A DNA stretch of 26,453 nucleotides from a virus: positions 1 through 26,453 of the IMG/VR virus record IMGVR_UViG_3300035698_033610; one strand, given 5' to 3'. Both the position numbers and the translations under genes were made by a program. Of the stretch, positions 4,253 to 24,914 are shown piece after piece; positions within the stretch are counted from its first letter, which is position 1; every line of letters begins with the position of its first letter. The notes under the pieces are model-generated. The model was not told the origin of the DNA. It saw nothing but the letters and a program-made list of their open reading frames with translations, and ran no database searches.

Positions 4253-4281
4253 TTGACTTTTCTCTCTCTATACGCTACAAC
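4253..4281 (+). promoter_or_regulatory. Candidate rightward promoter for the capsid module
   Basis: TTGACT (4253-4258, 5/6) and TACAAC (4276-4281, 4/6) separated by 17 bp, about 75 bp before the first rightward gene. Weaker than the two leftward promoters, which fits a regulated late promoter. Confidence 0.4.
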
Positions 4282-4333
4282 AGATATAGTTCTTTCAAAT
4301 ATCTTTACATCTGAAGTCAAATAGGCAAGAAGT

Positions 4334-4345
4334 CCTCTTAAGAGG
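4334..4345. repeat. 12-bp perfect palindrome before first late gene
   Basis: CCTCTTAAGAGG is a perfect palindrome 12 bp upstream of the ATG at 4358. GAAGTC occurs three times around it (4313-4318, 4329-4334, 4350-4355). It could be an operator or a small stem near the start codon; the gene has no SD. Confidence 0.4.
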
Positions 4346-4357
4346 CATTGAAGTCCT

Positions 4358-5113
4358 ATGAAACTATCTAATTATGAAATGGAGATTCTCGTAAATGGTC
4401 ATCCTGTTAAAGAATACGAACATGATAGGAAGATTTTTATTGAGGGTCGCAAAAGTGTAGAATATTCCATTAAAATCAAAAACAACGGTTATTCTAGAAT
4501 TCTAGCTATTCCTACCGTTGATGGTTTGTCGGTTCTTAATGGAAAAGAAGCAAGTTATAACTCTCCAGGATATATTGTGGAAGGAAGTTCTTCTCTGGTT
4601 ATTGATGGCTGGAGAACTTCTGAGAAAGATGTAGCTGAATTTTATTTTAGCTCATCAAAAGATTCTTATTCCCGCAAAAAGGGGAAAGGTAATCTTGGGG
4701 TAATAGGTTGTGCTATCTTTCAAGAGAATTTGATGAATCAGTCATGGGTAATTCCGAATAGACGTTTCTGGATACAACCTTGGAATCCTTGGAATCCTTG
4801 GTTTCAAACCACGACTTATGCAGGTGATACAACAGGTACGGATTTGTCAGGAGATTTCACTATGGGAAATTCGTATGTGAACCAATGTTCAAATTCGTCT
4901 ATTAGTCAAGATATTGGAACTGGATTTGGGGAGAGCAAAGAATCTAGGGTGACATTAGTGGAGTTTGATAAACGGGATATTCCCGATGTCGTCTTTTCTA
5001 TCCTTTATAATACCAAGAAAGGGTTGGAGGAAATTGGTATTGACTTTAAGAAAAGACCGATGTATGTAGCTCCACGGGCATTTCCCAATGGGTTTTGCCA
5101 ACCGCCCCGATAA
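4358..5113 (+). CDS. Widespread phage/bacterial protein of unknown function
   Basis: The product is 251 residues. The N-terminal ~125 residues form a beta-rich domain: EMEILVNGHPVKEY, IEGRKSVEYSIKIKNN, AIPTVDGLSVLNGKEASY, GYIVEGSSSLVIDGWRTS, GNLGVIGCAIF. I recall this order (ILVNG.PV.EY ... EGR...E..I...N ... VPSVDGLSV..G ... GWR) from proteins common in marine phages and some bacteria, without known function. A low-complexity middle follows (QPWNPWNPWF), then a second part (SRVTLVEFDKRDIPDVVFSI, KKGLEEIGIDF). It is the first gene of the late block, next to the portal gene, so a virion or decoration role is plausible (inference). No signal peptide. Confidence 0.65.
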   Translation: MKLSNYEMEILVNGHPVKEYEHDRKIFIEGRKSVEYSIKIKNNGYSRILAIPTVDGLSVLNGKEASYNSPGYIVEGSSSLVIDGWRTSEKDVAEFYFSSSKDSYSRKKGKGNLGVIGCAIFQENLMNQSWVIPNRRFWIQPWNPWNPWFQTTTYAGDTTGTDLSGDFTMGNSYVNQCSNSSISQDIGTGFGESKESRVTLVEFDKRDIPDVVFSILYNTKKGLEEIGIDFKKRPMYVAPRAFPNGFCQPPR

Positions 5114-6717: not shown

Positions 6718-6814
6718 AATTTGTCCTAAATGCGGAAGAAAAAATGAGGAAAGCCGAAAGTATTGTAAATACTGCGGTTGGCCTCTTGAAGTTCAGCAGA
6801 AGAAAGATGGTTAA
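6698..6814 (+). CDS. Small zinc-ribbon protein (38 residues)
   Basis: An ATG inside the end of the portal gene (20-bp overlap) opens a frame MSDTKTKICPKCGRKNEESR ... KYCKYCGWPLEVQQKKDG. The CPKC-x10-CKYC pattern is a classical zinc ribbon. Its stop TAA (6812-6814) overlaps the start of the following gene (ATG 6807-6809) in ATGGTTAA, so translation of the three genes is probably coupled. The tiny size and tight packing support a real gene. The role could be virion assembly or nucleic-acid contact; unknown. Confidence 0.75.
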   Translation: MSDTKTKICPKCGRKNEESRKYCKYCGWPLEVQQKKDG

Positions 6815-12169: not shown

Positions 12170-13108
12170 ATGTTAGTTAAAACAGATATTCCGAAGTTAT
12201 TATTAGCTGGGATGAAGAAAGAGTTCCTTAAAGCATATGAAGAAGAGCCCGTTCCTGATTATGATAAGATAGTTACTGTCATAAAATCCACCAAAGATAA
12301 GGAAACCTATCCTTGGCTTGGGGCAGTAGCTAAGATGAGAGAATGGAAAGACGAAAGGATAACTAAGGCGTTTTCCGAATATAAGTTTACGGTAACCAAT
12401 CGTTCCTTTGAAGGAACTATCTCTGTGGATAGAGATGCGATAGAGGACGAGCAGTATGGTCAGATTATGGTCAGAGTTAGACAGTTGGCTCAAGAAGCCA
12501 AACGGTATTGGAGAGAATTGGTCTTTGACCTTTTAGGTCAGGGTAATAGCACTAGTGGATCTGGAAACTTTGACGGTGTAGATATTGGCTGTTACGACAC
12601 TAAAGCATTTTTCGCTACAGATCACGCCTCAGGACTTGCTACGGGTCAAGACAATATAGGTTCAGCTGCTCTGGATTATAGCAATCTTCAGACTGCTATC
12701 ACCTCAATGAGAAAGTTCAAGGATGACCAAGGAAAGTTTATGAATGTTCAGCCTGATACCCTAGTAGTCAACCCAGACGAACAGTTTACTGCTCAAGAGA
12801 TTCTGAATAGCCAGTTCTATCCCGAGACTACTGCTGGAAGTGGTGCTAAACTTGCTGTTAATGTCCTGAAAGGTGCTCTAAACCTGATAGTTACTCCTTA
12901 TATAGATTCTGGGACTTGGGTAGTCTTAGATACCAAGGGAGTGGTAAAGCCAATTATTCAGCAAGTCAGAAGGAACATCGAGTTTACCGCCTTGACAACT
13001 GGAGCAGAAGCCTTTATGAGAAAGAAATTACTGTTTGGTGTTGATATGAGAGGAGAAGTAGCATTTGGGATGTGGCAGTATGCATTTGGTTCTCACAACG
13101 GTTGGTGA
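12170..13108 (+). CDS. Major capsid protein, Mu gpT-like
   Basis: The product is 312 residues, a usual length for the gpT family with HK97 fold. Seen: the N-terminal TDIPKLLLAGMKKEFLKAYE, the conserved 'F.V.NR.FE.TI.VDRDAIEDEQYG' segment, which in this family precedes the spine helix (MVRVRQLAQEAKRYWRELVF), FFATDHAS, DYSNLQTAITSMRKFKDDQG, an 'LVVNP..' strand, and a C-terminal MRGEVAFGMWQYAFGSHNGW. No separate delta domain is obvious; the scaffold is probably the preceding protease gene. Its TGA lies at the head of a structured intergenic stretch. Confidence 0.9.
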   Translation: MLVKTDIPKLLLAGMKKEFLKAYEEEPVPDYDKIVTVIKSTKDKETYPWLGAVAKMREWKDERITKAFSEYKFTVTNRSFEGTISVDRDAIEDEQYGQIMVRVRQLAQEAKRYWRELVFDLLGQGNSTSGSGNFDGVDIGCYDTKAFFATDHASGLATGQDNIGSAALDYSNLQTAITSMRKFKDDQGKFMNVQPDTLVVNPDEQFTAQEILNSQFYPETTAGSGAKLAVNVLKGALNLIVTPYIDSGTWVVLDTKGVVKPIIQQVRRNIEFTALTTGAEAFMRKKLLFGVDMRGEVAFGMWQYAFGSHNGW

Positions 13109-13249: not shown

Positions 13250-13286
13250 AAAAAATGTTCAAAAAAGAGATTCCCATAAAATATAA
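13173..13286 (+). CDS. Possible small ORF upstream of methyltransferase (37 residues)
   Basis: The ATG at 13173 lies in the loop side of stem 1 and opens MNLAEWRDGDYEKRLEDWVS followed by PNPLIL. The composition looks protein-like (Trp, Asp, Arg balanced) rather than random AT-rich sequence. It overlaps the start of the methyltransferase gene (13255) in another frame (+1). It could be a short coupled peptide or the displaced N-terminus of the methyltransferase. The overlap with RNA stems is a caution. Confidence 0.35.
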   Translation: MNLAEWRDGDYEKRLEDWVSPNPLILKNVQKRDSHKI

Positions 13287-13806
13287 TAAGGAATATTTCA
13301 GATTAATATCTGATACATATAAGACAACTGCTAGAATCATTAACCAGATTCGGTGGGATTTTGTTAAGGAAATTAAGCCAAAAATAGTCCTAGATTATGG
13401 GGCTGGGGCTTGTTTTCTTTCTAAGTATGCTCCCAAGGGAGTAGTAGTTGATACTTACGATATCGGAGATTTTCCTGTTAAATATACTGGAATCAGGCAT
13501 AAGTCTTATGACCTGATTTTTTTGTGTGATGTTTTAGAGCATATACCTGACTTCCGAGAATTTGATTATCTTTGGGAGAAAGCTGAATATGTTTATATTT
13601 CAATTCCTATTTTACCTAAAGGTCGAGAATTAAAGACTTGGAAACATTTTAAGCCAGGGGAACATTACCATTATTTTACCGAAAGGAGCTTGGATTTATT
13701 TTTTGAAGGTAGAGGGTTTGAGAATATTAAATCTGGTTATCCTGAATGTAAGATACGAAGTGATATTTATAGTGTTCTTTATAAAAGAAGTATAATTTTA
13801 AAGTAG
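13255..13806 (+). CDS. Class I SAM-dependent methyltransferase
   Basis: The product is 183 residues. Motif I is VLDYGAGACFL (residues 45-55), motif II ends VDTYDIGDFP, and the post-motif 'YDLIFLCDVLEHIPD' is the typical methyltransferase-11/25 type segment. A His-rich GEHYHYFTERSLDLFFEGRG follows, as in small methyltransferases that act on sugars or peptides. The N-terminus is short (44 residues before motif I). First gene of the glycan cassette; 4 bp separate it from the kinase gene. It is one of three methyltransferases near a SAM synthetase gene, so a methylated glycan is likely (inference). Substrate unknown. Confidence 0.75.
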   Translation: MFKKEIPIKYNKEYFRLISDTYKTTARIINQIRWDFVKEIKPKIVLDYGAGACFLSKYAPKGVVVDTYDIGDFPVKYTGIRHKSYDLIFLCDVLEHIPDFREFDYLWEKAEYVYISIPILPKGRELKTWKHFKPGEHYHYFTERSLDLFFEGRGFENIKSGYPECKIRSDIYSVLYKRSIILK

Positions 13807-13810
13807 AAAT

Positions 13811-14593
13811 ATGAAAATTGCTTTACTTGGTGATTCTTTTATCGACGAATATATCTTTGGAGAAATAGAAAGAGTTTCTCCAGAAGCTCCAGTTCCTGTT
13901 TTAGATGTAAAACATAAAGAAAGAAGAGGAGGGGGAGCTATTAATGTTGCCAATAACCTTTTTGGATTAGGAGTGGATTTTACTTTATTTACTATTACTT
14001 CAATGAAATTGCCTTATAAAGTTATTACTCCTAAGAGTTGTACTGCTTTGAAAAAAACTAGATATGTGGGAAGCAGAGGTTCAATGAAGCAACAAATCAT
14101 GCGAGTGGATGAACCCAAAGAATATCTAAAGCAAGATTTGAAAAAAATGGTTTATCCTAGCTTTAGTGATTTTGATATTATTGCCTTTATAGATTATAAT
14201 AAGGGGACGATTAAGGAAGGGAAGGCTACTATAGTTGATTCGAAAAAGAAGGATTTGTCTGTTTTTAAAGGAACAGAATATTTAAAAATCAATTTAGGAG
14301 AATGGAAGAATTCAACAAGTGGCGACAATTTTCCTAAAATATTTGTGACTAAGGGGGAGAAAGGAATTGATTATTTTGAGTATGGTCAGCTTAAGTTTAG
14401 CGAACCAACACTATCTCAAGAAATTGTGGATATTTCAGGGGCTGGGGATACAGTTATGGCTACTATGATTTATTGTTTGGTTCATAATATAACCGACCCT
14501 AGAAAAATGATGCAGTTAGCGAATAAAGCTGCGGGAATAGTAATTGGTAAGTTTGGGACAGCCTCTGCAACATTTAAAGAGTTAAATCTATGA
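13811..14593 (+). CDS. hldA: PfkB-family kinase, D-glycero-D-manno-heptose-7-phosphate kinase-like (HldA/HldE N-domain)
   Basis: 260 residues against ~315 for the usual HldE kinase domain. The family would phosphorylate heptose 7-phosphate at C1 in ADP-heptose synthesis. Seen: GDSFIDEYIFGEIERVSPEA (residues 7-26), whose 'GD..lD.Y..G...R.SPEAPVPV' is diagnostic of this branch, the substrate Gly loop RRGGGAINVANN (38-49), and the anion hole/base ISGAGDTV (208-215, catalytic Asp213). The shortening falls in the middle of the domain, not at either end. It overlaps the MetK gene by 4 bp (ATGA). Its partner adenylyltransferase is encoded separately at 19465. Confidence 0.8.
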   Translation: MKIALLGDSFIDEYIFGEIERVSPEAPVPVLDVKHKERRGGGAINVANNLFGLGVDFTLFTITSMKLPYKVITPKSCTALKKTRYVGSRGSMKQQIMRVDEPKEYLKQDLKKMVYPSFSDFDIIAFIDYNKGTIKEGKATIVDSKKKDLSVFKGTEYLKINLGEWKNSTSGDNFPKIFVTKGEKGIDYFEYGQLKFSEPTLSQEIVDISGAGDTVMATMIYCLVHNITDPRKMMQLANKAAGIVIGKFGTASATFKELNL

Positions 14594-15552
14594 TTAAAAT
14601 TGCCGAATTTTGTCGCAAAGGGCACCCTGACCGACTTTCTGATATTATAGCCGATGCCTTACTTGATGAATATTTAAAGCGAGATTCAAATGCACGAGTG
14701 GCTTTGGAGGTATTTGGGTGTCATGGAGTAATTACGATTGGAGGTGAAATTACAACCAATAGTCATGTTGAGATTGCTAAAGTGGTTAGGGATGTTTATC
14801 AAGAAATTGGTTATCAGGATAATGTAGGAATTCATGTTAATATTAAAAAACAATCTCCTGAAATTAAGAAACTAGCCGATGTGGGAGCAGGGGATTCTGG
14901 GATAACTACTGGTTATGCGACAGACGAAACGCCTGAAATGCTACCCAAAGAGGTAGTAATAGCGAAACAAGTTTGTTCTGCCCTTGATGATTTGTCCTAT
15001 TTGAAACCAGATGGCAAGGTTCAAGTAGTTCTAGACGGAAATGAGGTTATTGAGCTAATAGTTTCAGTTCAGGCAGAGAAGAAGTTCCGACCTCAACTTG
15101 AGAAATTTCTAAAATCAAAATATCCTTCTAAAAAATTACACCTAACACTTTTTCAAACTGGTGGTTTTGATGCCGATACTGGGCTGACTGGCAGAAAAAA
15201 TGTATTGTGGTATGGACCTAGAATACCAATTGGTGGTGGTTCATTCGCAGGCAAAGACGCCACCAAGGTGGATAGAAGTGGAGCTTACTGGACAAGATGG
15301 AAAGCGAAGAAAGCTATTGAAGAGTTAGGATATAGCGATTGTCTTTTTGAATCTTCGTATGTGATTGGGAAGAGCGAACCTCTTGCAGTTAGATATTGGG
15401 GGACTAAAGACGGCAAGTCCGTTTATGGCGAGGATTTTGGGGGGATTCCGCTCCGAGTTCTTATTAAAAAATTGGGACTAAAAAAGCCAATCTATAAGCA
15501 GGCAAGTTTATTAGGTCATTTTGGGAATCAAATCTTATCATGGGAAAAATGA
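14590..15552 (+). CDS. metK: S-adenosylmethionine synthetase (MetK-like)
   Basis: 320 residues against ~380-400 for bacterial MetK; the reaction is methionine + ATP to SAM. Key signatures are present in order: GHPDRLSD (11-18, catalytic His12), EVFGCHGVITIGGEITTN (40-57), GAGDSGITTGYATDETPEML (99-118), GLTGRK (198-203), GGGSFAGKDATKVDRSGAY (215-233, catalytic Lys/Asp) and a C-terminal GHFGNQ. The missing ~60 residues are lost from loops between motifs, so the enzyme is compact rather than broken. ATGA coupling to the kinase gene. In a cluster with three methyltransferases it presumably raises SAM supply. Phages more often encode SAM-destroying enzymes, so this is unusual. Confidence 0.85.
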   Translation: MIKIAEFCRKGHPDRLSDIIADALLDEYLKRDSNARVALEVFGCHGVITIGGEITTNSHVEIAKVVRDVYQEIGYQDNVGIHVNIKKQSPEIKKLADVGAGDSGITTGYATDETPEMLPKEVVIAKQVCSALDDLSYLKPDGKVQVVLDGNEVIELIVSVQAEKKFRPQLEKFLKSKYPSKKLHLTLFQTGGFDADTGLTGRKNVLWYGPRIPIGGGSFAGKDATKVDRSGAYWTRWKAKKAIEELGYSDCLFESSYVIGKSEPLAVRYWGTKDGKSVYGEDFGGIPLRVLIKKLGLKKPIYKQASLLGHFGNQILSWEK

Positions 15553-15637
15553 AATACATTTCTGCTCCAGAAAGTTTTATTCTAATCCAAAATATGACTT
15601 GACTTCTGGTTTTATAGGACATATGATGGAAGTATGA
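15549..15637 (+). pseudogene. Possible gene remnant between metK and HNH gene
   Basis: ATGA at the end of metK opens a 17-residue frame (MKYISAPESFILIQNMT) that stops at 15600-15602. In a different frame, 15602-15637 reads TSGFIGHMMEV then stop, resembling the nucleotide-binding turn of SDR proteins (G-x-G-F-I-G). The DNA there (CTTCTGGTTTTATAGGA) matches the intact epimerase start near 16190 (CTTTTGGCTTTATCGGA) at 14 of 17 positions. This may be a decayed fragment left when the HNH gene inserted. Confidence 0.3.
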
Positions 15638-16164
15638 TTACCATAAAATGTCCCTGTGGAAGGACTATTTCCACTTTTCAAAGTAGAATAGGGCGAAAAA
15701 AATATTGCTCTAAAAAATGTTTTTACAGATATAGAAAGAGACCGAGTGGTTTAAAATATAATATCAAGGTTGAAAATAAGGGTTGGTTTCAAAAGGGAAA
15801 AGTTCCCCCTACAGCTTGGAAGAAAGGAGATACTCCTTGGAATAAAAATTTGAAAGGGATTCATTTATCTCCAGAAACCGAATTTAAAAAGGGAGAAAAT
15901 CTTGAGGAGAAAAATAATAAATGGAAAGGGAATGATGTGGGATATGGAGGAATTCATACTTGGATAGAAAGAAAATATGGTAGTGCTAACAAATGTGAAA
16001 ATAGAGAAAATAATATATTAGATTTTAAATGTTCAAATAAATCTGACAATTATAACTGGGCATTGATAAAAGGAAAAAGGTATGAGAGAAAAAGAGAAAA
16101 CTTTGTGATGCTTTGCCGTTCTTGTCATCTCAGATACGATGAAATTAATAAAAAAAAGAGATAA
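15634..16164 (+). CDS. HNH homing-type endonuclease with N-terminal zinc knuckle
   Basis: The product is 176 residues. The N-terminal CPCGRTISTFQSRIGRKKYC ... SKKCF is a four-Cys zinc knuckle seen in free-standing phage HNH enzymes. The middle contains NUMOD-like repeats (KGWFQKGKVPPTAWKKGDTP, WNKNLKGIHLS). The C-terminal HNH part is IHTWIERKYGSANKCENREN ... NYNWALIKGKRYERKRENFV then MLCRSCHLRYDEINKK: beta-beta-alpha-metal type with the CRSCH second pair. The canonical first His-Asn of HNH is replaced by 'NYNWA' as in related phage enzymes. It lies between metK and the epimerase and overlaps the latter by 26 bp, as expected for an inserted selfish gene. Confidence 0.8.
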   Translation: MITIKCPCGRTISTFQSRIGRKKYCSKKCFYRYRKRPSGLKYNIKVENKGWFQKGKVPPTAWKKGDTPWNKNLKGIHLSPETEFKKGENLEEKNNKWKGNDVGYGGIHTWIERKYGSANKCENRENNILDFKCSNKSDNYNWALIKGKRYERKRENFVMLCRSCHLRYDEINKKKR

Positions 16165-16966
16165 AAAAAAGATAATGATAACGGGAGCTTTTGGCTTTAT
16201 CGGAAGAAATCTGGTCAAGGAACTAAAGAAAGACAGTCAAAACTCTCTTGTTCTCTGGGGAAAAGATGTTTGTGAAACGATTGCTATCAAAAATAACTTT
16301 GATGTAATTTATCATTTGGCTGCTAATACTGATACTAGATTTCCCAATGATGTTGAAATGTATCGGAATAATATTCTTGGATTCCTTTCTGTTCTTGATT
16401 TTGCCCTTAAAGGAAAATCCAAACTAATTTATGCTTCATCTGCTTCTCAATTCGGAAATTATAAGAAAACTGCTTATGCCGAATCCAAGATTCTGATAGA
16501 CAGAATAGCTGAACACTTCTTTGATAAACTCCCAATGGTTGGTTTGAGATTTTTTAACGTCTTTGGTTCGGGCGAAAAAGAGAAAGGCAAGATGTCTAGT
16601 ATGGTTACTCAATGGACAGAACAGCTGAAAGCAGAAAAACGCCCTAGAGCTTTCCTAGAGGAGAGAAAAACGAAAAGAGACCATATATATGTCAAAGATG
16701 TGATAAAAGCTCTCAGGGTAGCTGTAGAAGTTCGTAGTGGCATCTATGATGTGGGGTCGGGCAAGCCAGCGACATTTGATAGAGTTTTGAACTTAGTGCA
16801 AAAATATCTAGGAACTGAGAGAAAACCAATTTATATTCATAATCCATATAAGGAACATTACCAAAAAGGAACTAAAGCCAATCTGAATTGGGACTTTGAA
16901 CCTGATTATTCTCTAGAGGAAGGAATTAAGGATTATTTAATTCATAAGAAATATGAAAAAAGTTAA
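16139..16966 (+). CDS. hldD: SDR nucleotide-sugar epimerase, ADP-heptose 6-epimerase-like
   Basis: 275 residues (HldD is ~310). The family converts ADP-D-glycero-D-manno-heptose to the L-glycero form using NADP. Seen: Rossmann GAFGFIG (16-22), the active-site IYASSASQFG (97-106) and Tyr113-x3-Lys117 (YAESK). The substrate part FFNVFGSGEKEKGKMSSMVT followed by KRDHIYVKDV and 'GIYDVGSGKPATFDRV' matches HldD closely ('YFNVYGP.E..KG.M.S ... KRDF.YV.DV ... GIFNLGTG.A.SF'), as does HYQKGTKANL near the end. Start at 16139 (inside the HNH gene) keeps the first beta strand; no better start is visible. Among extended SDRs this branch fits best, but a dTDP/GDP-sugar epimerase is the alternative. Confidence 0.75.
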   Translation: MKLIKKRDKKKIMITGAFGFIGRNLVKELKKDSQNSLVLWGKDVCETIAIKNNFDVIYHLAANTDTRFPNDVEMYRNNILGFLSVLDFALKGKSKLIYASSASQFGNYKKTAYAESKILIDRIAEHFFDKLPMVGLRFFNVFGSGEKEKGKMSSMVTQWTEQLKAEKRPRAFLEERKTKRDHIYVKDVIKALRVAVEVRSGIYDVGSGKPATFDRVLNLVQKYLGTERKPIYIHNPYKEHYQKGTKANLNWDFEPDYSLEEGIKDYLIHKKYEKS

Positions 16967-17579
16967 AAAAGTTTGGGGTTCAGAGTTGTGGATCACAAAT
17001 TCCAAGAAATATTGTGGTAAAAAGTTATTCTTGAAAAGAGGTTATCGCTGTTCCATACACCATCACAAAATTAAAGATGAAACATTCTTCATAATTCGTG
17101 GGAGGGTTCTAATGGAGGTTGGAAAGAAAAAATGGATTATGGAATATGGCGATGTTCAGCATATTGAACCAATGTGCAATCACAGATTTACTGGATTGAC
17201 AGATGCTGAAATCATTGAGTTCTCAACTCAACATCTTGAATCTGATTCTTACCGAAAAACAAAATCCGAGAAATGCAGTTTGCGAAAAGCTTATGATTAT
17301 GATGGGGTAGTTAGTAAAGGAATTAAGCTAGAACCCGAAGCTCCGATTATTACAGGGCGGAGCTTTGAGGAACTTAATAGAATTGATTCCAAAAAGACGA
17401 AAGGGCATGTAATTTACTTTAATCCAGTTGCCTGGGGAGAAAAAACCCTGGAAAAGGAAATTGAGTGGAAGGCAGAAATGATAAAGAAATTGAAAATAGA
17501 AGAATATTACGAGGATGATTGTAGAATAATTGTGACTCTAACAGAAAAGTGTCCAAAGTGTAATATAATCAAGGTATAA
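16953..17579 (+). CDS. Cupin-domain protein with C-terminal extension (sugar isomerase-like)
   Basis: The product is 208 residues. The N-terminal cupin (1-105) has VWGSELWITNSKKYCGKKLF, metal ligands H36-H-H38, E43 and probably H77, and 'FFIIRGRVLMEVGKKKWIMEYGD'. This is the type found with sugar-phosphate isomerases, as in the phosphomannose-isomerase C-domain. The C-terminal ~75 residues (GHVIYFNPVAWGEKTL ... EDDCRIIVTLTEKCPKCNII) are a separate unknown segment with a CPKC pair. It overlaps hldD by 14 bp, so it is coupled to it. In an ADP-heptose setting it might replace the missing GmhA-type isomerase, but that is only inference. Confidence 0.65.
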   Translation: MKKVKKVWGSELWITNSKKYCGKKLFLKRGYRCSIHHHKIKDETFFIIRGRVLMEVGKKKWIMEYGDVQHIEPMCNHRFTGLTDAEIIEFSTQHLESDSYRKTKSEKCSLRKAYDYDGVVSKGIKLEPEAPIITGRSFEELNRIDSKKTKGHVIYFNPVAWGEKTLEKEIEWKAEMIKKLKIEEYYEDDCRIIVTLTEKCPKCNIIKV

Positions 17580-17588
17580 GAACATGAT

Positions 17589-18392
17589 TCAAGAATTAGA
17601 TATCAAGGGAACAGATGGGGAATTCTGATGAAGATGAGTATGACAATTTTTACATAAAGTAATGCCGTTGTCCAAGTCCCATAGAAATTTATATTTCAAA
17701 GCTCTTTTATAAGTTATTTTTCTGTCTGAATATGCATATCTAATTTCGTTGATGATAGAAAAAAAATCTACGAAATGATGGGCGATTAACTTTTTCTTAT
17801 CATTACAGGACTGACAGGTGCTATCTCTTTGAATAATCTTATTTCTCCAGTCTCGATATGATTGACTTCCCCTAATCTTTCTGGCAATTATCTTAACATC
17901 GGTCTGATACGGATGCTGAATTTTATAAGCTGTTCTCGGTAGATGATTCTTCACTCCTTCACTGATATTTTTTTTGTGTTTCTCTGAAATCTTTTTTCCG
18001 AGTTTAGCATTTCTCATTTTTATTCTCGTTTTTTGGCTTACTTTCCTTCCTTTCGGAAGTGAATATCCCTTTTTATTTTTATTCCAAGGGATATGTCCCT
18101 TTTTGAAATTTCCAGAATTTCGATATCCTTTATGACCCTTTTTGAAATAGCCCTTATTAAGTTTACCATTTCTTATAGCTTGGCTATAGCAGTTTTTTGA
18201 ACAATATTTTCCTCTTCCGCTTTCAATCCTTGAAGGACTAATCATAATTTTTCTTTCACAATTCAAACATTTTCTAGTAATTCTTGTTATCTTAGATTTT
18301 CCAAAACATTTTTGAGAACAAAATTTTTGATTAGGGAAACGAGCATTGAATGCTTTATGACAGAATTTACAAGTTTTTTTTAATCCTTTCAT
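17589..18392 (-). CDS. HNH homing endonuclease with NUMOD3-like repeats, antisense to cassette
   Basis: 267 residues from the ATG at 18390-18392 (MKGLKKTCKFC...). An upstream ATG at 18431 would add 13 residues inside an inverted repeat. N-terminal zinc knuckles: CKFCHKAF ... CSQKCF and CLNCERK ... CSKNCY. DNA-binding NUMOD3-type repeats: KKGHKGYRNSGNFKKGHIPW, then KGRKVSQKTRIKMRNAKLGK. The C-terminal HNH: YRDWRNKIIQRDSTCQSCND, IAHHFVDF and LDNGITLCKNCHTHLH, with all key His/Asn/Cys present. It is the only leftward gene in the whole late region and converges on the cupin gene with 9 bp between stops: a mobile insertion. Confidence 0.85.
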   Translation of the reverse strand: MKGLKKTCKFCHKAFNARFPNQKFCSQKCFGKSKITRITRKCLNCERKIMISPSRIESGRGKYCSKNCYSQAIRNGKLNKGYFKKGHKGYRNSGNFKKGHIPWNKNKKGYSLPKGRKVSQKTRIKMRNAKLGKKISEKHKKNISEGVKNHLPRTAYKIQHPYQTDVKIIARKIRGSQSYRDWRNKIIQRDSTCQSCNDKKKLIAHHFVDFFSIINEIRYAYSDRKITYKRALKYKFLWDLDNGITLCKNCHTHLHQNSPSVPLISNS

Positions 18393-18400
18393 AATAAAAG

Positions 18401-18452
18401 CCCCCACAAACTTGGAGGTCGGTGGGGACATAAAATGAAATGACCTCCAAGT
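18401..18452 (-). promoter_or_regulatory. Competing hairpins before the antisense HNH gene
   Basis: Stem A: ACTTGGAGGTC (18410-18420) and GACCTCCAAGT (18442-18452), perfect 11/11 with a 21-nt loop. Stem B: CCCCCAC (18401-18407) with GTGGGG (18422-18427), in minus sense followed by CTTTTATT and then the ATG at 18392. A and B share the loop region and probably exclude each other. Stem B would hide the only G-rich stretch near the start codon, or act as a terminator. This resembles the RNA-hairpin control known for T4 homing endonuclease genes. On the plus strand stem A sits 27 bp before the next gene. Confidence 0.5.
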
Positions 18453-18479
18453 AATTTTATTATAAACAATTAAAAAATT

Positions 18480-19529
18480 ATGTCAAATTATTCAAATATC
18501 AATATTCATTGGGATAAATGGGCAGAGGAACATCCTGCAATAGTTAATAAGAAAAGGAAAATAATCTTGAGACAAGGTCAATCTCCTGGAGATATTTTGA
18601 CTATGAGTAGAGCAATAGCGGACTTGAAAGCAAGTTATCCGAATTATCAAATTGATATTCGTTGTCCCGCAATGGAAGTTTGGAAAAATAGCCCTCATCT
18701 GACTCCCTTAAAAGAAGATGATCCCGAAGTTGAAACTTTTAACATAGGTTATCCTTTAATAAATGAAAGCGGATGGAGAGGATTACATTTTTCTGATGCC
18801 TTCCGCTATGATATGGAGGAAAAACTCGGTGTTCCGATTAAAAAAACTGGAATAAGACCAGAACTTTGGATTTCAGAAGAGGAGAAAAGTTGGTATAATC
18901 AGGTTCATTGCGAATTTGGTTGGGATGGTCCTTATTGGATTCTCAATGCTGGACATAAATCTGACAATGTTCTCAAGCAATATCCAAGATGGCAAGAAGT
19001 GGTTGACTTATTGAATAAGTATTTTCAAGGGAAAGTTAAGGTAGTGACTATCGGGCATCAAGACCATATCCATCCAAAATTGAATGGTGTCCTTGATTTA
19101 GTAGGCAAAACAAATACCAGAGAGCTTATTAGATTAATGTATTGGGCTCACGGTTCGGTTGGTCCTATTAGTTTTCAGTTTGTTATTTCTGCGGCTTTTG
19201 GTCAGCCAGCAGTTGTTGTTGCAGGGAACAAGGAGGGATTGCGTTGGCAAGCTTATAACTGGATTAGATATATCTGTAATACTGGTTGTTTCCCAGAATT
19301 TCAGTGGGATGGATGTTGGAAAGGAGGACAAGGCAAGAAATGCCCTAATTTAGTTGAGACCGATAAAGGTTTAGTTCCTAAATGTTTTGAAATGATTAAA
19401 CCCGAAGAAGTAACTAAAGCTGTAACTGATTATTATGAGGGAGGAAGATTAAAATTACCAAGCGATGAAGAAAATTATAAGTTTCAAAAAGCTTTTAAGC
19501 ATTTCCAAAAAAGCCAAAAGAGAAGGTAA
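18480..19529 (+). CDS. GT9/heptosyltransferase-like glycosyltransferase with Cys cluster
   Basis: The product is 349 residues, GT-B-type. The N-terminal domain begins KIILRQGQSPGDILTMSRAI (27-46), the 'G.GD.l...p.l..lk..yP...I' pattern of heptosyltransferases. The C-terminal domain has WILNAGHKS (~153-161), KVVTIGHQDH and LVGKTNTRELIRLMYWAHGS ... GPISFQFVISAAFGQPAVVV, the GT9 nucleotide-sugar pocket. A Cys group near the end (C266, C270, C279, C288, C302; ICNTGCFPEFQWDGCW) looks metal-binding and recalls the iron finger of autotransporter heptosyltransferases, though the spacing differs. It overlaps the adenylyltransferase gene by 65 bp. The donor is likely ADP-heptose made by its neighbours (inference). 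Confidence 0.75.
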   Translation: MSNYSNINIHWDKWAEEHPAIVNKKRKIILRQGQSPGDILTMSRAIADLKASYPNYQIDIRCPAMEVWKNSPHLTPLKEDDPEVETFNIGYPLINESGWRGLHFSDAFRYDMEEKLGVPIKKTGIRPELWISEEEKSWYNQVHCEFGWDGPYWILNAGHKSDNVLKQYPRWQEVVDLLNKYFQGKVKVVTIGHQDHIHPKLNGVLDLVGKTNTRELIRLMYWAHGSVGPISFQFVISAAFGQPAVVVAGNKEGLRWQAYNWIRYICNTGCFPEFQWDGCWKGGQGKKCPNLVETDKGLVPKCFEMIKPEEVTKAVTDYYEGGRLKLPSDEENYKFQKAFKHFQKSQKRR

Positions 19530-19932
19530 AAAGATAACTTTTACCAATGGCTGTTTTAGGATTGTCACAATTGCTCACGCTAGGTATCTCCAAGAAGCCA
19601 GAAAATATGGCGATATTTTAATAGTTGGTCTTAACAGCGATTCTTCGGCTAGAAAGCTAAAGGGCGATTCAATAGTTCCAGAAAAGCAAAGAGCGGAATT
19701 GCTTTTCCCTTACGCTGATTATATTTACATCTTTTCTGGTTATTCGCCAATGCCAATTTTGAAAAAATTGAAGCCCAACTTCTACATTAAGGGTGGAGAT
19801 TATAAAAAAGAGAGAGCCGATAAATCTGGATGTAGAGAGTTTGTGAAAAGTTATGGAGGCAAGGTGGTCTTGACAAAATTGACCTTGAATGTTTCTACAA
19901 GTAAAATAATAAAAAGGATTAAATCTTCTTAG
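19465..19932 (+). CDS. hldC: ADP-heptose adenylyltransferase-like (HldE C-domain/HldC)
   Basis: 155 residues, the normal length of the adenylyltransferase half of HldE. It would join heptose-1-phosphate to ATP, giving ADP-heptose. Seen: ITFTNGCFRIVTIAHARYLQ (24-43), GDILIVGLNSDSS (49-61), RKLKG, EKQRAELLFPYADYI, 'IKGGDYKKE' (108-116) and the STSKII motif (144-149). The usual HxGH catalytic motif reads T35-I-A-H38: the last His is kept, the first His and the Gly are not. Some HldE-like proteins carry T-P-G-H here, so activity may remain. The long overlap with the preceding GT9 gene implies coupling. Together with the kinase at 13811 this rebuilds HldE as two proteins. Confidence 0.75.
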   Translation: MKKIISFKKLLSISKKAKREGKKITFTNGCFRIVTIAHARYLQEARKYGDILIVGLNSDSSARKLKGDSIVPEKQRAELLFPYADYIYIFSGYSPMPILKKLKPNFYIKGGDYKKERADKSGCREFVKSYGGKVVLTKLTLNVSTSKIIKRIKSS

Positions 19933-19967
19933 CGAGATATTATTAAAAGAAAGAAGAAAATTTCATT

Positions 19968-20795
19968 ATGATAAAAGCAAATCCAAAAATGGGAAAAACT
20001 AAAATTGGCATAATTGGTTCAGAAGGAGTTGTTGGGGGTTCGCTGAAAAGATATTTCCAAAAGCAAAAGAACTTTGAACTCTTTTTTTACGATAAGGGCA
20101 AAAAGATAGGTTCTATAGAAGAGGTTTCTAAAGCTGACTATATCTATGTTTGTGTTCCTACTCCCACAATTAATGATAATGGGGTTGGAAGACATTGTGA
20201 TACTTCAATTGTGAGAGAAGTGATTAAACAAATTCAAGGGGAGAACAAGATAATAATCATTAAATCAACCATAACTCCAAGAACTACCGAAACAATTCAA
20301 GAGGAATTGCCAAATCACAAGATTCTTTTTAATCCAGAATTTCTAACGGCGGAAACTCCTGACCAAGACATAAGTTATCCAGATCGTCAAATTGTAGGAT
20401 TTACAAAAAAGAGTTATGACGTAGCTGGAGAAATAATGCTTCAGCTTCCCCTAGCTCCGTTTGAAATGATAATGCCGGTTACTGAAGCTGAGATGGTGAA
20501 ATATGTCAGTAATTGTTGGCTTTCAACTAAAGTAATATTTGCTAATCAGATATATGAAGTTTGTCAGAAACTTGGAATCGATTACAATAGGGTTAAAGAT
20601 GCTACTGTCGCTGATAAGAGAATATGCAAGTCACATCTTGATATCTTTCATGGCGGGTATCGTGGTTTTGGAGGTTATTGTCTCCCCAAAGATTTAGAAG
20701 CTTATATTGGTTTTGCCAAAACTTTGGGCTTTGAAGATAAATTATTAAAGATTGTGAAAGAAATTAATGATGGACTTATTTCCCAAAATAAATAG
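19968..20795 (+). CDS. UDP-glucose/GDP-mannose dehydrogenase-like, short form
   Basis: 275 residues, or 268 from Met8. The family oxidises a nucleotide-sugar C6 alcohol to the acid with two NAD. Seen: Rossmann KIGIIGSEGVVGGSL (12-26), VCVPTPT (61-67), IIIKSTITPRTTE (96-108), FNPEFL (121-126), Lys178/Asn182 in MVKYVSNCWLSTKVIFAN and the catalytic Cys238 in GGYRGFGGYCLPKDLEA. Thus the NAD and central domains with all catalytic residues are present, but the whole C-terminal UDP-binding domain (~150 residues) is absent; the family is usually 430-450 residues. The stop is followed by a normal gap and the next gene, so this is a short form rather than a recent break. Substrate unclear. Confidence 0.75.
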   Translation: MIKANPKMGKTKIGIIGSEGVVGGSLKRYFQKQKNFELFFYDKGKKIGSIEEVSKADYIYVCVPTPTINDNGVGRHCDTSIVREVIKQIQGENKIIIIKSTITPRTTETIQEELPNHKILFNPEFLTAETPDQDISYPDRQIVGFTKKSYDVAGEIMLQLPLAPFEMIMPVTEAEMVKYVSNCWLSTKVIFANQIYEVCQKLGIDYNRVKDATVADKRICKSHLDIFHGGYRGFGGYCLPKDLEAYIGFAKTLGFEDKLLKIVKEINDGLISQNK

Positions 20796-20826
20796 CAATA
20801 AGATAAATTCTAAATAGTTTATAATT

Positions 20827-21729
20827 ATGGGTTTTTCTAGTTATCAAAAACATTTTTCAGAGGGAGAATTCATTGGAGGAGGACGGGGAGAAAAAAGATT
20901 TCAATTAATTGATTGGAATCTTATTAAAGGACATTCAGTTCTTGATTTGGGCTGTTCTAATGGAATGTTGGCTATCGAGGCAAAGAGGAGAGGAGCAACC
21001 AGAGTTGTTGGAGTGGACAGAGACGATTGGATTTCTTCTGTTCGAGAATCAATTAAAGAACTAAATCTTGATATTGAATTTTGGGAATTGGATATTGAAA
21101 GTCCAGAATTCAAGAATTTCTGTCCCAAATTTGATGTGGTCTTTTTCTGTTCTATGCTTTCTCACATGCATGACCCGAAAGGAATGTTACGTTGGATTGA
21201 TTCTCATACTAAAGAAGTGTTTTACTTTGAAAGTAATCTAGGAGAAAGCCGAAAACCACAGATTGAATCGGTTAAAAAGTTTACTTCATTTGATGTAATT
21301 AAGTTTTTGCACAGAAGCGATGCATCTAATGAGGGAGTGCGATATATGTGGGCTTGCGGAAGAAGAGGAAAAGAAAACAAAATTGAATCTTGGAAAGATG
21401 TTCCCATAACCTTTATTCCTATAGATAGAATTCGAGGACCTCTTGAAGATAAGTGTAGCCAGGTTCTGCCGAATGAGCGAATTCAAGTGTTAAAAAAGAA
21501 TATTCAAGAGAATGGGCTTATGTCTCCTCTCATTGTGAAAAAATCGATTAGAATAGATTTTGATTATGATGGAATTGAGGGAGGAAAGAGATATTGTATT
21601 TTAAGAGAGCTTGGATATAAAGATGTTCCATGCAAAATCATACCCAATATTTCAAGTAAGCAATTGGTAAAAGAAGACAATAAAAATTTTCAATTAGAGC
21701 AACCAGAAGAAAATGTCAAAAAAACTTAA
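20827..21729 (+). CDS. SAM methyltransferase fused to ParB-like domain
   Basis: The product is 300 residues. N-terminal class I methyltransferase (~30-185): motif I VLDLGCSNGMLA (38-49), acidic loop VGVDRDDW (61-68), FWELDI, 'DVVFFCSMLSHMHDP' (103-117). C-terminal ParB/sulfiredoxin-type domain (~192-275): VPITFIPIDRIRG, then RIQVLKKNIQENGLMSPLIV, and GIEGGKRYCILRELGYKDVP, which corresponds to the 'G.HRy.A...LG...vPc' core. ParB domains bind CTP/ATP or act as nucleases or kinases in other proteins. The fusion may couple methyl transfer to nucleotide binding, but the target is unknown. It overlaps the next gene by 17 bp. Confidence 0.75.
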   Translation: MGFSSYQKHFSEGEFIGGGRGEKRFQLIDWNLIKGHSVLDLGCSNGMLAIEAKRRGATRVVGVDRDDWISSVRESIKELNLDIEFWELDIESPEFKNFCPKFDVVFFCSMLSHMHDPKGMLRWIDSHTKEVFYFESNLGESRKPQIESVKKFTSFDVIKFLHRSDASNEGVRYMWACGRRGKENKIESWKDVPITFIPIDRIRGPLEDKCSQVLPNERIQVLKKNIQENGLMSPLIVKKSIRIDFDYDGIEGGKRYCILRELGYKDVPCKIIPNISSKQLVKEDNKNFQLEQPEENVKKT

Positions 21730-22645
21730 CCAATATGCAGTCGTAATGACTGCTACATCAGGAATGTTACCTGGAGTTAACGCCTTTGCCAATGGACTCG
21801 ATTATTATGACAATAGAGTTGATTTCTATTTGGTTGGGGATGAAAAGATTGAAAAATATGTGGAAGAAGCTCAAAAGGTTCCTGATTTTAAAGTGAATTT
21901 CTTTTTCAAATCCATTGAGCAGGGAAATAAAGATTGGCCAGTTCCCCCTGAGAGAAAGAGTGGTTGGCAAGTTCGCTTTTTTCGTTATAAGGAGGCTATA
22001 GAAATCGGTGAAGATTATGATTCTGTGATGATAGTAGATGCAGATATGCTTTGTTTAAATAATCTAATGCCCTACTTTAGGCTTGCCCATGATTCAAAAT
22101 GGATAATTTTGCCAACAAATCCATGGGGCATGAAACTAGAAAACATATTAGAGTTTGGGACAAGTGGATTAAAAGGAGCTTCGTCTCCACCCTATCATAA
22201 CATGCCATTGTTTCTTGATGTCAAAGAATGGAAATGGTTCTTGGAAGAAATTTGGAAGAATGGATTAGCCAATTCTTATGGAGATATGGTTAATGTTTCC
22301 AGAACAATCATAGATAATAAATTATACTTAGATAAAGTTTTAGCTCTTCAAAATCAACTTTGGATTCTCTCCACATTTTATTTGGAAAAAATTAAAATTG
22401 AGAAGCTAGGTGGAAAGGAATTTCTTATGCAGATGGAGGAAAAAATCAACACCGTGCATAGACGTTGGTGGGATAATGGAGTTTGTAAAAAATTTATCAG
22501 CGACATCGATGACAAGAAGACGCATGGAAGTTTAGACAAAGCCAAAAATAATGTCAAATTGTTCTGGTCAATGTACAAGAAGTTCAATCAAAATCACAAG
22601 ATAAAAATAGATTGGCCATTCAATTGGTACGAAGATAATAAATAG
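21713..22645 (+). CDS. GT-A fold glycosyltransferase
   Basis: The product is 310 residues. GT-A features: an N-terminal strand QYAVVMTATSGMLPGVNAFA (6-25), a second strand VDFYLVGDEKI, a Gly-Trp-helix segment RKSGWQVRFFRYKEAIEIGE, and the DxD metal site SVMIVDADMLCLNN (104-117, Asp109/Asp111). It lacks signs of membrane attachment. A C-terminal His-Arg-Trp-Trp (NTVHRRWWDNG) is consistent with a GT8-like late metal ligand. The donor and acceptor are unknown. It overlaps the methyltransferase-ParB gene and is followed 18 bp later by another methyltransferase. It is similar in layout to the GT at 23976. Confidence 0.7.
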   Translation: MSKKLNQYAVVMTATSGMLPGVNAFANGLDYYDNRVDFYLVGDEKIEKYVEEAQKVPDFKVNFFFKSIEQGNKDWPVPPERKSGWQVRFFRYKEAIEIGEDYDSVMIVDADMLCLNNLMPYFRLAHDSKWIILPTNPWGMKLENILEFGTSGLKGASSPPYHNMPLFLDVKEWKWFLEEIWKNGLANSYGDMVNVSRTIIDNKLYLDKVLALQNQLWILSTFYLEKIKIEKLGGKEFLMQMEEKINTVHRRWWDNGVCKKFISDIDDKKTHGSLDKAKNNVKLFWSMYKKFNQNHKIKIDWPFNWYEDNK

Positions 22646-22663
22646 ATTTAACTTACAACAAAT

Positions 22664-23188
22664 ATGTCTAAAGATTTTGAAATAAAAGATGAACATATTC
22701 AGTGGATTCTTGAAAGATATGCTGGTTTTCTTAAAAATAAAGAAAATTCAAAAATTCTTTGGGGAAATCGCAGTATCTGGAAGAAGGACTGGATAGTTCT
22801 TAAGAGATTCTTGAAAGAACAGAATATTAAGAGTGTTCTTGAATATGGTTGTGGACTTTCCACGGAACTTATAGAGTTAGAGGGAATTAAGGTTGTTTCT
22901 TTGGAAACTTCAGACTGGTGGGCAGAAATTAATAGAAAGGTTATTAAGAATGAGATAATTGAATACGAAGAAGGAAATCTTCCCAAAATTGATGGTATTT
23001 TTGACCTAGCTTTTGTTGATGGTCCTCAAACTGGGCAGAGAATACCCGAAATTATTCATGCCAAGGCTCATTCAAATATAATTTTCTTCCATGATTTGGA
23101 TACTAATCGCATCAAGGTCGTGGAGGATTTAATGAAAGATTGGAAAATCATAGAAGGATATACCAACCAATTTTGGAAAAAGGCATGA
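22664..23188 (+). CDS. Class I methyltransferase-like protein
   Basis: The product is 174 residues. A helical N-terminus (IKDEHIQWILERYAGFLKNK, WKKDWIVLKRFLKEQ) leads into motif I SVLEYGCGLSTELI (57-70) and motif II 'VVSLETSDWWAEI'. Then comes 'IFDLAFVDGPQTGQRIPEII', the strand-4 segment with VDGP seen in O-methyltransferase-like and FkbM-like proteins, and FFHDLDTNR, which is a His-Asp pair. It is shorter than usual; the last strands are minimal (WKIIEGYTNQFWKKA). Third methyltransferase of the cassette. Its TGA overlaps the following ATG (ATGA), so they are translationally coupled. Confidence 0.7.
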   Translation: MSKDFEIKDEHIQWILERYAGFLKNKENSKILWGNRSIWKKDWIVLKRFLKEQNIKSVLEYGCGLSTELIELEGIKVVSLETSDWWAEINRKVIKNEIIEYEEGNLPKIDGIFDLAFVDGPQTGQRIPEIIHAKAHSNIIFFHDLDTNRIKVVEDLMKDWKIIEGYTNQFWKKA

Positions 23189-23958
23189 TTGAAAACTTTA
23201 AAGATAAGAAATTAGTTGAATATTTGCAGGATGAGCAGAAGGTTTTGGTGAGATTCGGACATGGATTGGGCGACACTTTTCTTTGGATGCCTACTTTTGA
23301 GAAGCTAAAAAAAATATATCCAAAAGTTTCTTTTGATTTATATGTAGAGTCTGGTCAGGAAGAAATATTTCAATCCATAAAAGACAAAGATGCTCCTGGA
23401 TACGACTTAGTATTCTCTTTGAATTTTCCAATGTCAGAGGGTTCAAATTTAACCAAAGCCCAAAAATGTTGCATTGAAGAGATAGGAATTGAATCACCAG
23501 TGGAAGAAGTTTATAAACCTCAAGAATATGAAAGTCCTTTTGTTGCTATTCATCTAATGGGGACAGCCTTACCAGGAAGCGTAAACTGCCCAGAAGAAAT
23601 TGCCAGACAGATTTGGCAAGAGGTGAAGGATTTTGGTAAGATTCCGATTGAGTGCCATTTTGAACATTGTTGGGCAAATCCAAATAATAAGAAATATGGC
23701 TTTATAGATATTTCGGTCAGAGGTTATCAAGCAAAAGTTTCCAATCTGATAGGATTAATCCAACATAGTTTTGCTACGATAGCCGTAGCTTCAGGGCCAT
23801 TTGTAGTTGCTTTATCTGTGATGCCTAAAAGATTATTATATCTTGAGAAAAGTCATCCGCTAAAAACTTATACCCAGAGGGCAGATGTGAAAAAAATTAA
23901 GATTTCAGAATATCGGGTAGGGATGATAAAGGAATTTTTGGAAGGTTTGAATAAATAA
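23185..23958 (+). CDS. Second GT9/heptosyltransferase-like protein
   Basis: 257 residues from the ATG at 23185 (ATGA overlap). An earlier ATG at 23140 would add 15 residues and a 49-bp overlap, and is less likely. N-terminal pattern KVLVRFGHGLGDTFLWMPTF followed by EKLKKIYPKVSFDLYV is classic GT9; the second half has FVAIHLMGTALPGSVNCPEE, IPIECHF and 'LIGLIQHSFATIAVASGPFV', the sugar-nucleotide pocket. It is short (usual ~330) and lacks the Cys cluster of the 18480 protein. It may add a further heptose or be a partner subunit. Neighbours: methyltransferase upstream, GT-A transferase downstream. Confidence 0.7.
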   Translation: MIENFKDKKLVEYLQDEQKVLVRFGHGLGDTFLWMPTFEKLKKIYPKVSFDLYVESGQEEIFQSIKDKDAPGYDLVFSLNFPMSEGSNLTKAQKCCIEEIGIESPVEEVYKPQEYESPFVAIHLMGTALPGSVNCPEEIARQIWQEVKDFGKIPIECHFEHCWANPNNKKYGFIDISVRGYQAKVSNLIGLIQHSFATIAVASGPFVVALSVMPKRLLYLEKSHPLKTYTQRADVKKIKISEYRVGMIKEFLEGLNK

Positions 23959-23975
23959 TCTAAGAAATTTAGAAT

Positions 23976-24914
23976 ATGTCGAGACCAAAAAGTAAAAATG
24001 TTTCAATCGTGGCTGCTTCCTCTAATTATTTAGGAGAATTGAACGCTCTCTTTAACTCCATAGATTACTGGGAAATAGATACCGATGTAGTTTTGCTTTC
24101 CTATAAATTGCCCGAAGATTACCTGAAAAGGATTCAGGAAGTTTTTGATTTCAACATTAAGATTATTCAAGCTCCAGAAGGAGAGCAAATTAGAATGACT
24201 GCCATTGAGAGATTTAGAGTTGCTTGTGAGGAAGGAAAAAATTACGAAGCGATACTATTATTAGATGCAGACATATATTTCACAGCAAATGTTGATTTAT
24301 ATTTTGATGTAGCAAGTAAAGGTTTTATAATTACCTCTCATAATGGAATGATAATTGGTTTTGGCAAATCATACCAAAGAGATTATAATGTAGATTTAGG
24401 AGTTCCTGATTATCCTTATGTAAAAGTTCATAGTACAGTTCCTATTTGGCTCAGTCCTAAAGATTTGGATTGGTTCAAGGCTTTATATGATTCCAGAGAA
24501 ATGGATAATTTTGATGACTTGATGTATCTAAATGTATTAGGAATAAAAATGGGAAAGAATAAAAGAATGCTTAGCTTACAAGCGTTCCAAAGTACAAATA
24601 TTCATCACTGGTCTATGAAATTGGAGACAGGTTTAATAAGAAAAGGGGATTTGGTATTGACGGGAGTAGAAGGAGAGAATCTGAGCGTACACGGAAAATT
24701 CTCAATGGAGGCTTATTATAAGGATTTAATGAAAGTAATGGATGGTTATCTCAAAGATGAAGGTTTTACAGAAAAAAGACATCGTGAAAAAGTATTAAAA
24801 TCAAGAGAAATTATGTTAGAAGAGTTTATGAAATATACTTATCTGTGTAAGTTAGATTTGAGAGATTTCATTCACATAGAATGGTTGGAAAAGAAATTAA
24901 AACCTTTAGAATAG
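23976..24914 (+). CDS. GT-A fold glycosyltransferase (last of cassette)
   Basis: The product is 312 residues. Seen: VSIVAASSNYLGELNALFNSI (first strand and helix), a second strand TDVVLLSYKLPEDYL, 'QIRMTAIERFRVACEEGKNY' and the DxD site AILLLDADIYFTANVDLYF (92-110, Asp97/Asp99). A late His (NIHHWSMKLE, ~211-220) could be a third metal ligand. The C-terminal ~60 residues are helical and charged. Soluble, no membrane segment. The gene ends in TAG and is followed by the structured region at 24968-25088, which probably marks the end of the cassette transcript. Confidence 0.7.
   Translation: MSRPKSKNVSIVAASSNYLGELNALFNSIDYWEIDTDVVLLSYKLPEDYLKRIQEVFDFNIKIIQAPEGEQIRMTAIERFRVACEEGKNYEAILLLDADIYFTANVDLYFDVASKGFIITSHNGMIIGFGKSYQRDYNVDLGVPDYPYVKVHSTVPIWLSPKDLDWFKALYDSREMDNFDDLMYLNVLGIKMGKNKRMLSLQAFQSTNIHHWSMKLETGLIRKGDLVLTGVEGENLSVHGKFSMEAYYKDLMKVMDGYLKDEGFTEKRHREKVLKSREIMLEEFMKYTYLCKLDLRDFIHIEWLEKKLKPLE

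Follow-up and report, generated by a model that had tools for sequence, protein, structure and literature searches.

A cupin-fold protein as candidate sedoheptulose-7-phosphate isomerase in a putative phage NDP-heptose cassette

Introduction

How could a phage make an activated heptose from a metabolite of its host when the bacterial enzymes for two of the steps, GmhA and GmhB, are missing from the sequenced part of its genome? The question is raised by IMG/VR virus record IMGVR_UViG_3300035698_033610, a fragment of a phage genome whose 26,453 bases were analysed whole and are called the window here. Between Mu-type head genes and a tail-fibre gene, the window carries a sugar cassette that has homologues of HldA, HldC and HldD in common with the bacterial ADP-heptose pathway (GmhA, HldE, GmhB, HldD), but holds a cupin and a small HAD-like domain where the SIS-fold GmhA and the canonical GmhB would stand. 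An initial annotation, made from the sequence alone, had proposed that the phage completes or boosts the ADP-heptose supply of its host.

The heptose pathway of phages had so far looked incomplete. According to the summaries in PMC11461863 and PMC11573728, Tang et al. (2024, Science 385:678) described working viral enzymes for nucleoside diphosphate (NDP)-heptose; the phosphatase is there said to be absent in viruses, and PMC11573728 calls the roles of the enzymes in viruses unsolved. Here we propose, as a moderately probable reading, that the NDP-heptose pathway of many phages, DPANN archaea and bacteria of the candidate phyla radiation (CPR) begins with a sedoheptulose-7-phosphate isomerase that has the cupin fold and no relation to GmhA, and that the fusion of this isomerase to a HAD phosphatase in the window would let the virus encode every step, starting from a central metabolite of its host.

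Results

The protein encoded by the open reading frame (ORF) at 16953-17579 joins a cupin at its N-terminus to a domain resembling HAD phosphatases at its C-terminus, so that the "cupin isomerase-like protein" of the initial annotation describes its first half only. Both domains are well predicted in the AlphaFold model (predicted local distance difference test, pLDDT, 92.6), as an all-beta domain at residues 1-107 and an alpha/beta domain at residues 112-208. The cupin exceeds the cut-off of PF01050, the C-terminal domain of mannose-6-phosphate isomerase in Pfam (25 vs 23.6 bits), as do its counterparts in the related loci L034, L100 and L147, while the Lyx_isomer cut-off is passed by the cupins of L100 and L118. 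The metal ligands H36, H38, E43 and H77 are kept in the window, and a motif survey found HxH..K.E in 232 of 235 members of the cupin family. Compared with the PDB, a family profile built from 20 sequences matched D-lyxose isomerase and D-lyxose/D-mannose isomerase over nearly its full length (6e-8 and 4e-7), and the top Foldseek matches of the cupin half include an archaeal phosphomannose isomerase (TM-score 0.85) and D-lyxose isomerases (22% identity, root-mean-square deviation 1.4-1.5). Such isomerases interconvert a ketose and a manno- or lyxo-aldose, the same chemistry as the conversion of sedoheptulose-7-phosphate to D-glycero-D-manno-heptose-7-phosphate. The cupin has no match to the GmhA family PF13580 (SIS_2), nor does anything else in the window, so it is not GmhA itself.

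The cupin is linked to the heptose kinase. In 75 of 85 kinase-bearing phage loci, the two are no more than about 8 kb apart; conversely, a kinase is found near the cupin in 51 of 78 loci retrieved with the cupin as query, a set with many short contigs, some of them shared with the 85-locus kinase set. Among 50,697 phage records, the kinase occurs in 35 and the cupin in 35, with both in 31, several of which are near-identical; Stenotrophomonas phages matching the HAD half alone were left out of this count. PF13580 was found in none of 50 whole phage records. Canonical GmhB accompanies the kinase in nine phage loci, and eight of these also carry the cupin. In DPANN archaea and CPR bacteria, genes for the cupin, the short-chain dehydrogenase/reductase (SDR), the kinase, GmhB and the nucleotidyltransferase follow one another in an operon.

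Two further observations place the cupin in the position of GmhA. The first comes from gene fusions, in which the same kinase is joined either to the cupin, as in archaea (L147, L152, L165, L275, L276, L277 and L282), or to GmhA (L278, L279 and L280). The isomerase candidate of either type is attached to the C-terminus of the kinase, and several fusions of each type adjoin a fusion of the nucleotidyltransferase with GmhB. The second comes from genome distribution: in the kinase-carrying genomes of one archaeal phylum, cupin and GmhA almost exclude each other. With the GmhA threshold placed in a gap of the scores, 50 genomes of this phylum with a strong kinase divide into 15 with the cupin, one of which has GmhA, and 35 without it, 27 of which do (p=4.1e-6); under strict conditions (curated kinase cut-off, cupin at 100 bits or more) the figures are 0 of 8 and 18 of 18 (p=6.4e-7), although these p values ignore kinship, the thresholds were chosen after the scores had been seen, and the metagenome-assembled genomes (MAGs) are incomplete. 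Across 27 combinations of thresholds, p was below 0.05 in 25, the exceptions being those that combine the strictest kinase and GmhA cut-offs.

In the relative phage L259 (4914-6312), the cupin half lacks its HxH, E and H ligands, the adjoining kinase has GAGA instead of GAGD, and the HAD-like half is intact. Joint decay of the cupin ligands and of the catalytic aspartate of the kinase is consistent with the loss of one shared pathway. The same locus has a PIG-L deacetylase gene at 4264-4917. Because of the linkage, the lack of GmhA in the phage records searched, the cellular operons, the fusions, the distribution and L259, we propose that the cupin of 16953 probably carries out the GmhA step.

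The HAD-like half of the fused protein keeps the motifs DYDG, ITGR, K and EDD in four relatives, and its modelled structure is compatible with the Rossmann-like fold of HAD phosphatases. Residues 111-208 match a small Stenotrophomonas phage protein in tblastn (2e-12), which in turn matches the polynucleotide kinase family phrog_415 (1.8e-15), as do small HAD proteins of cyanophages, referred to below as mini-HADs (2.9e-8). Family profile searches and hhalign gave no direct HAD family match for this domain, and the Foldseek matches listed for the fused protein concern the cupin half only. From its position, the domain may serve at the GmhB step, an assignment less secure than that of the isomerase.

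The three remaining enzymes of the pathway match the Hld families more closely than any other families, as the initial annotation had proposed from the same ORFs. The kinase (13811) scores 170.5 bits with TIGR02198 and 33 with ribokinase, the next unrelated family; its profile finds heptose-7-phosphate kinase 4e84 as best PDB match, the next family following at 3e-10. It is 28% identical to the N-terminal half of E. coli HldE (1e-33), has its catalytic GAGD at residues 210-213, and groups with E. coli HldE away from the outgroups in a tree (support 0.997). For the SDR (16139), TIGR02197 gives 183.3 bits and the best non-HldD model 47; the best PDB match is H. pylori HldD, the S, Y-x3-K and "KG" lysine align with E. 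coli HldD, and the protein falls inside the HldD clade in a tree with outgroups (support 0.944). The nucleotidyltransferase (19465) has TIGR02199 as best family, is 39% identical to the C-terminal half of E. coli HldE, and has a putative bacterial cytidylyltransferase, 5x9q, as best PDB match; its tree is weakly resolved, with low support. None of the three trees places its protein outside the Hld families.

Taken together, the cassette is rather probably a phage NDP-heptose pathway with a cupin as isomerase and a HAD-like phosphatase, plus enzymes for glycan assembly and methylation. The cupin would convert host sedoheptulose-7-phosphate to D-glycero-D-manno-heptose-7-phosphate in place of GmhA, the HldA-like kinase would phosphorylate it at C1, and the HAD-like domain would remove the phosphate at C7 in place of GmhB. 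The HldC-like enzyme would then activate the product to NDP-heptose and the HldD-like SDR would epimerise it, after which GT9-like enzymes could transfer the heptose, and S-adenosylmethionine synthetase (MetK) and the methyltransferases could modify it, on a glycan of the host surface or the virion. On this proposal the earlier view of the phage as completing or boosting host ADP-heptose keeps its basis in the enzyme families and trees, but the GmhA and GmhB steps, for which no canonical enzyme was found in the window, would not just fall to the host, since the fused protein is a likely substitute for both.

Several observations weigh against this reading. All three Hld matches remain below their NCBI equivalog cut-offs (170.5 vs 345 bits for the kinase, 135 vs 181.5 for the nucleotidyltransferase, and 183.3 vs 274.6 for the SDR), hence the designation "-like". 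The nucleotidyltransferase has TIAH in place of HxGH, the sole such case in the motif survey, where relatives with a readable motif show HxGH and, in one instance, HPAH; the window enzyme may therefore be weak or altered. In both the PDB profile search and Foldseek, KdgF, quercetinase and oxalate decarboxylase rank level with the isomerases among the cupin matches. The HAD identity is indirect, depending on motifs, topology and the phrog_415 bridge, and a comparison of the window domain with the cyanophage mini-HADs reached 0.3% in hhalign, with no direct alignment. No phosphatase was detected in about half of the phage loci, and in about half of the cellular loci the cupin has no kinase nearby. 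In addition, a broader set of 32 genomes chosen by their cupin, nearly all with an adjoining kinase, includes 10 with a GmhA-sized SIS protein.

Three other explanations were weighed. Sugar-nucleotide pathways often include cupin epimerases, and RmlC-type cupins act on other NDP-sugars. The cupin could likewise catalyse a later step, as an RmlC-type NDP-heptose epimerase or ketoisomerase, with host GmhA and GmhB supplying the heptose phosphates. The weak matches of the window copy to GMP_PMI and general cupin models would fit this, but the structures nearest to the cupin over its full length are those of aldose-ketose isomerases, and a later step does not predict the exchange with GmhA in fusions and across genomes; we consider it rather unlikely. 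Partial decay of the cassette, whose genes would then be passengers in this phage, is unlikely: the altered nucleotidyltransferase motif, a shortened dehydrogenase, the inserted HNH-like genes and the real decay of cupin and kinase in the L259 relative point that way, yet every gene listed by the initial annotation is an intact ORF, codon usage follows that of the head genes (r=0.96), and the cupin ligands and the kinase GAGD are kept. Still less likely is the action of these enzymes on another sugar phosphate, a hexose or a different heptose, with a product other than NDP-D-glycero-D-manno-heptose; the sub-threshold Hld scores and the deviating TIAH motif would allow it, but kinase, nucleotidyltransferase and SDR each match the Hld families by a wide margin and canonical GmhB is present in sister cassettes.

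Table 1. Features of the sugar cassette and its borders, in window coordinates
Feature	Position	Strand	Evidence
Major head protein (Mu-type), upstream border of the cassette	12170..13108	+	phrog_371 9.5e-65; tblastn matches to Mu-like phage capsids
SAM (S-adenosylmethionine)-dependent methyltransferase	13255..13806	+	Methyltransf_23 8.6e-12
HldA-like D-glycero-D-manno-heptose-7-phosphate kinase	13811..14593	+	TIGR02198 4.6e-50; PDB 4e84 1e-40; tree; catalytic GAGD kept
S-adenosylmethionine synthetase (MetK), shortened phage form	14590..15552	+	TIGR01034 2.9e-68; phrog_1569 2.3e-70
Zinc-finger/HNH-like gene, probably an inserted endonuclease, outside the pathway	15634..16164	+	sequence pattern; no Pfam match
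HldD-like ADP-heptose 6-epimerase (SDR)	16139..16966	+	TIGR02197 6.2e-54; 3sxp 1e-33
Cupin domain (residues 1-108), proposed sedoheptulose-7-phosphate isomerase (GmhA substitute)	16953..17276	+	PF01050; PDB profiles; AlphaFold; Foldseek
HAD-like domain (residues 109-208), proposed heptose-1,7-bisphosphate phosphatase (GmhB substitute)	17277..17579	+	motifs; model; tblastn bridge
HNH-type homing-endonuclease-like gene, inserted, outside the pathway	17589..18431	-	weak HNH_2 0.011
GT9-like glycosyltransferase, candidate heptosyltransferase	18480..19529	+	hhalign vs E. coli WaaC/F/Q/U 97.3%, 2e-11; Pfam 0.037
HldC-like heptose-1-phosphate nucleotidyltransferase	19465..19932	+	TIGR02199 1.2e-39; TIAH replaces HxGH
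Shortened nucleotide-sugar dehydrogenase, without C-terminal domain, catalytic Cys region kept	19968..20795	+	TIGR03026 6.2e-44
Methyltransferase fused to ParB_N-like domain	20827..21729	+	Methyltransf_25 3.1e-11; ParB_N 5.1e-8
Possible GT-A glycosyltransferase	21713..22645	+	DxD-like "DAD" motif only; no significant family match
Possible methyltransferase	22664..23188	+	Methyltransf_23 0.043 (weak)
Possible GT9-like glycosyltransferase	23185..23958	+	hhalign 88.7%, 2.6e-6, 62 N-terminal columns (weak)
Possible GT-A glycosyltransferase	23976..24914	+	DxD-like "DAD" motif only; no significant family match
Tail-fibre-like protein, downstream border, incomplete at the contig end	25295..26452	+	phrog_6427 9e-13; phrog_8469 1.4e-8

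The genes expected to assemble and modify the glycan are less uniformly assigned (Table 1). Two GT9-like proteins had been named from sequence. That at 18480 shares with WaaC, WaaF and WaaQ, and with WaaU, a profile similarity that extends across 237 columns, although its Pfam score is below the cut-off; the assignment of 23185 is weaker, and closer relatives of this protein occur on other viral contigs (L267-L270, 50-56% identity). The GT9-like profiles found no match among PDB sequences, and the AlphaFold model of 18480 was discarded (pLDDT 39). Of three methyltransferases proposed, 13255 and 20827 are clear and 22664 is weak, while both ORFs put forward as GT-A transferases exist but have the "DAD" motif as their sole sign of that family. 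MetK and the sugar-nucleotide dehydrogenase are present as annotated, the latter in shortened form, with residues 51-269 covering positions 71-295 of the 413 in the TIGR03026 profile; it may oxidise a sugar. The presence of MetK and two clear methyltransferases fits a methylated product and, with at least one GT9-like enzyme, is compatible with the suggestion of a methylated heptose glycan on the virion or host surface. The pairing of a methyltransferase with a ParB_N-like domain at 20827-21729 is unusual in a sugar cassette. Nothing in the window bears on the role of ADP-heptose as an immune agonist in animals.

Two related loci, L001 and L005, share with the window the head genes, the kinase, the cupin-HAD protein, the SDR and the GT9-like genes, and differ from it in cargo such as LicD-like, cytidylyltransferase and additional methyltransferase genes, as expected for a variable surface glycan. 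Each encodes a methyltransferase-HldC fusion with intact HxGH (L001:8687-9706 and L005:6932-8020), corresponding to 13255 and 19465, which are separate genes in the window.

The borders of the cassette agree with its earlier placement between capsid and fibre genes. Mu-type portal, prohead protease, decoration and major head proteins occupy 5.2-13.1 kb of the window, and the cassette genes that follow are on the + strand, the sole exception being one of two HNH-like genes within the cassette; both of these are likely homing endonucleases, judging from sequence. A large head-region protein (6744-9056) contains a metallo-beta-lactamase-fold domain (Lactamase_B_2 1.5e-9), and its homologue in L005 (4-2928) apparently has an intein-like insertion. 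Shine-Dalgarno motifs are nearly lacking upstream of most window genes, which have A-rich leaders instead, and this narrows the range of possible hosts. Searches with the major head protein gave two weak matches in a DPANN phylum (371 genomes), none in a CPR phylum (333 genomes) and one in the phylum to which a Bacteroidetes MAG belongs (345 genomes).

Discussion

Phage heptose genes as such are already known, having been annotated in cyanophages, and viral enzymes that work were described by Tang et al. (2024), as far as the summaries report. What appears new in our analysis is the cupin as a substitute for GmhA, the mini-HAD and cupin-HAD proteins as phosphatase candidates, and the occurrence of such a cassette in a group of Mu-headed phages. 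In comparison with the viruses of Tang et al., as summarised, the window and the cyanophages have small HAD-type phosphatase candidates, and their isomerase candidate is a cupin. A search of open-licence papers in PubMed Central (PMC) found none that joins a cupin with GmhA and heptose.

The closest parallels are found in cyanophages P-SSM2, S-CAM1 and P-TIM68, which like the window have HldC-like and HldA-like proteins, a HAD protein, a member of the same cupin family and an HldD-like SDR; in P-SSM2 and S-CAM1 the cluster also adjoins fibre genes. The window phage, which has Mu-type head genes, is unrelated to these cyanophages and adds methyltransferases and MetK. Moreover, cupin and HAD are separate genes in the cyanophages and fused in the window. 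The cyanophage mini-HAD adjoins the cupin, has a DxDGT motif and matches a HAD of capsule biosynthesis by profile (9iqw, 1.9e-21). The name "phosphoheptose isomerase" given to it as PHROG 1238 is unsupported by its motifs, and we rejected "cysteine dioxygenase", the PHROG name for the cupin, in view of the sugar isomerases among its structural neighbours, the heptose-gene context and the fusions. The cyanophage genes bearing these two names (PHROGs 1238 and 7851; L002:8710-9370 and L003:8719-9400) are probably misnamed; they resemble, respectively, a small HAD phosphatase and an isomerase-like cupin.

Among characterised enzymes, D-lyxose isomerase (2y0o, 7nzo) and archaeal phosphomannose isomerase (7zvy) resemble the cupin in fold, in metal-ligand motif and in an analogous conversion of a ketose to a manno-aldose, but their identity to it is only about 15-22%, and the substrate we propose is a seven-carbon sugar phosphate.

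Should the cupin prove to be the isomerase, a complete or near-complete route to NDP-heptose would exist in many phages, DPANN archaea and CPR bacteria, two annotations in wide use would need correction, and the role of heptose in phages would become testable. The pathway would then also offer a clean example of a fold being replaced by a different one at a single step, with the two exchanging positions in fusions to the same kinase.

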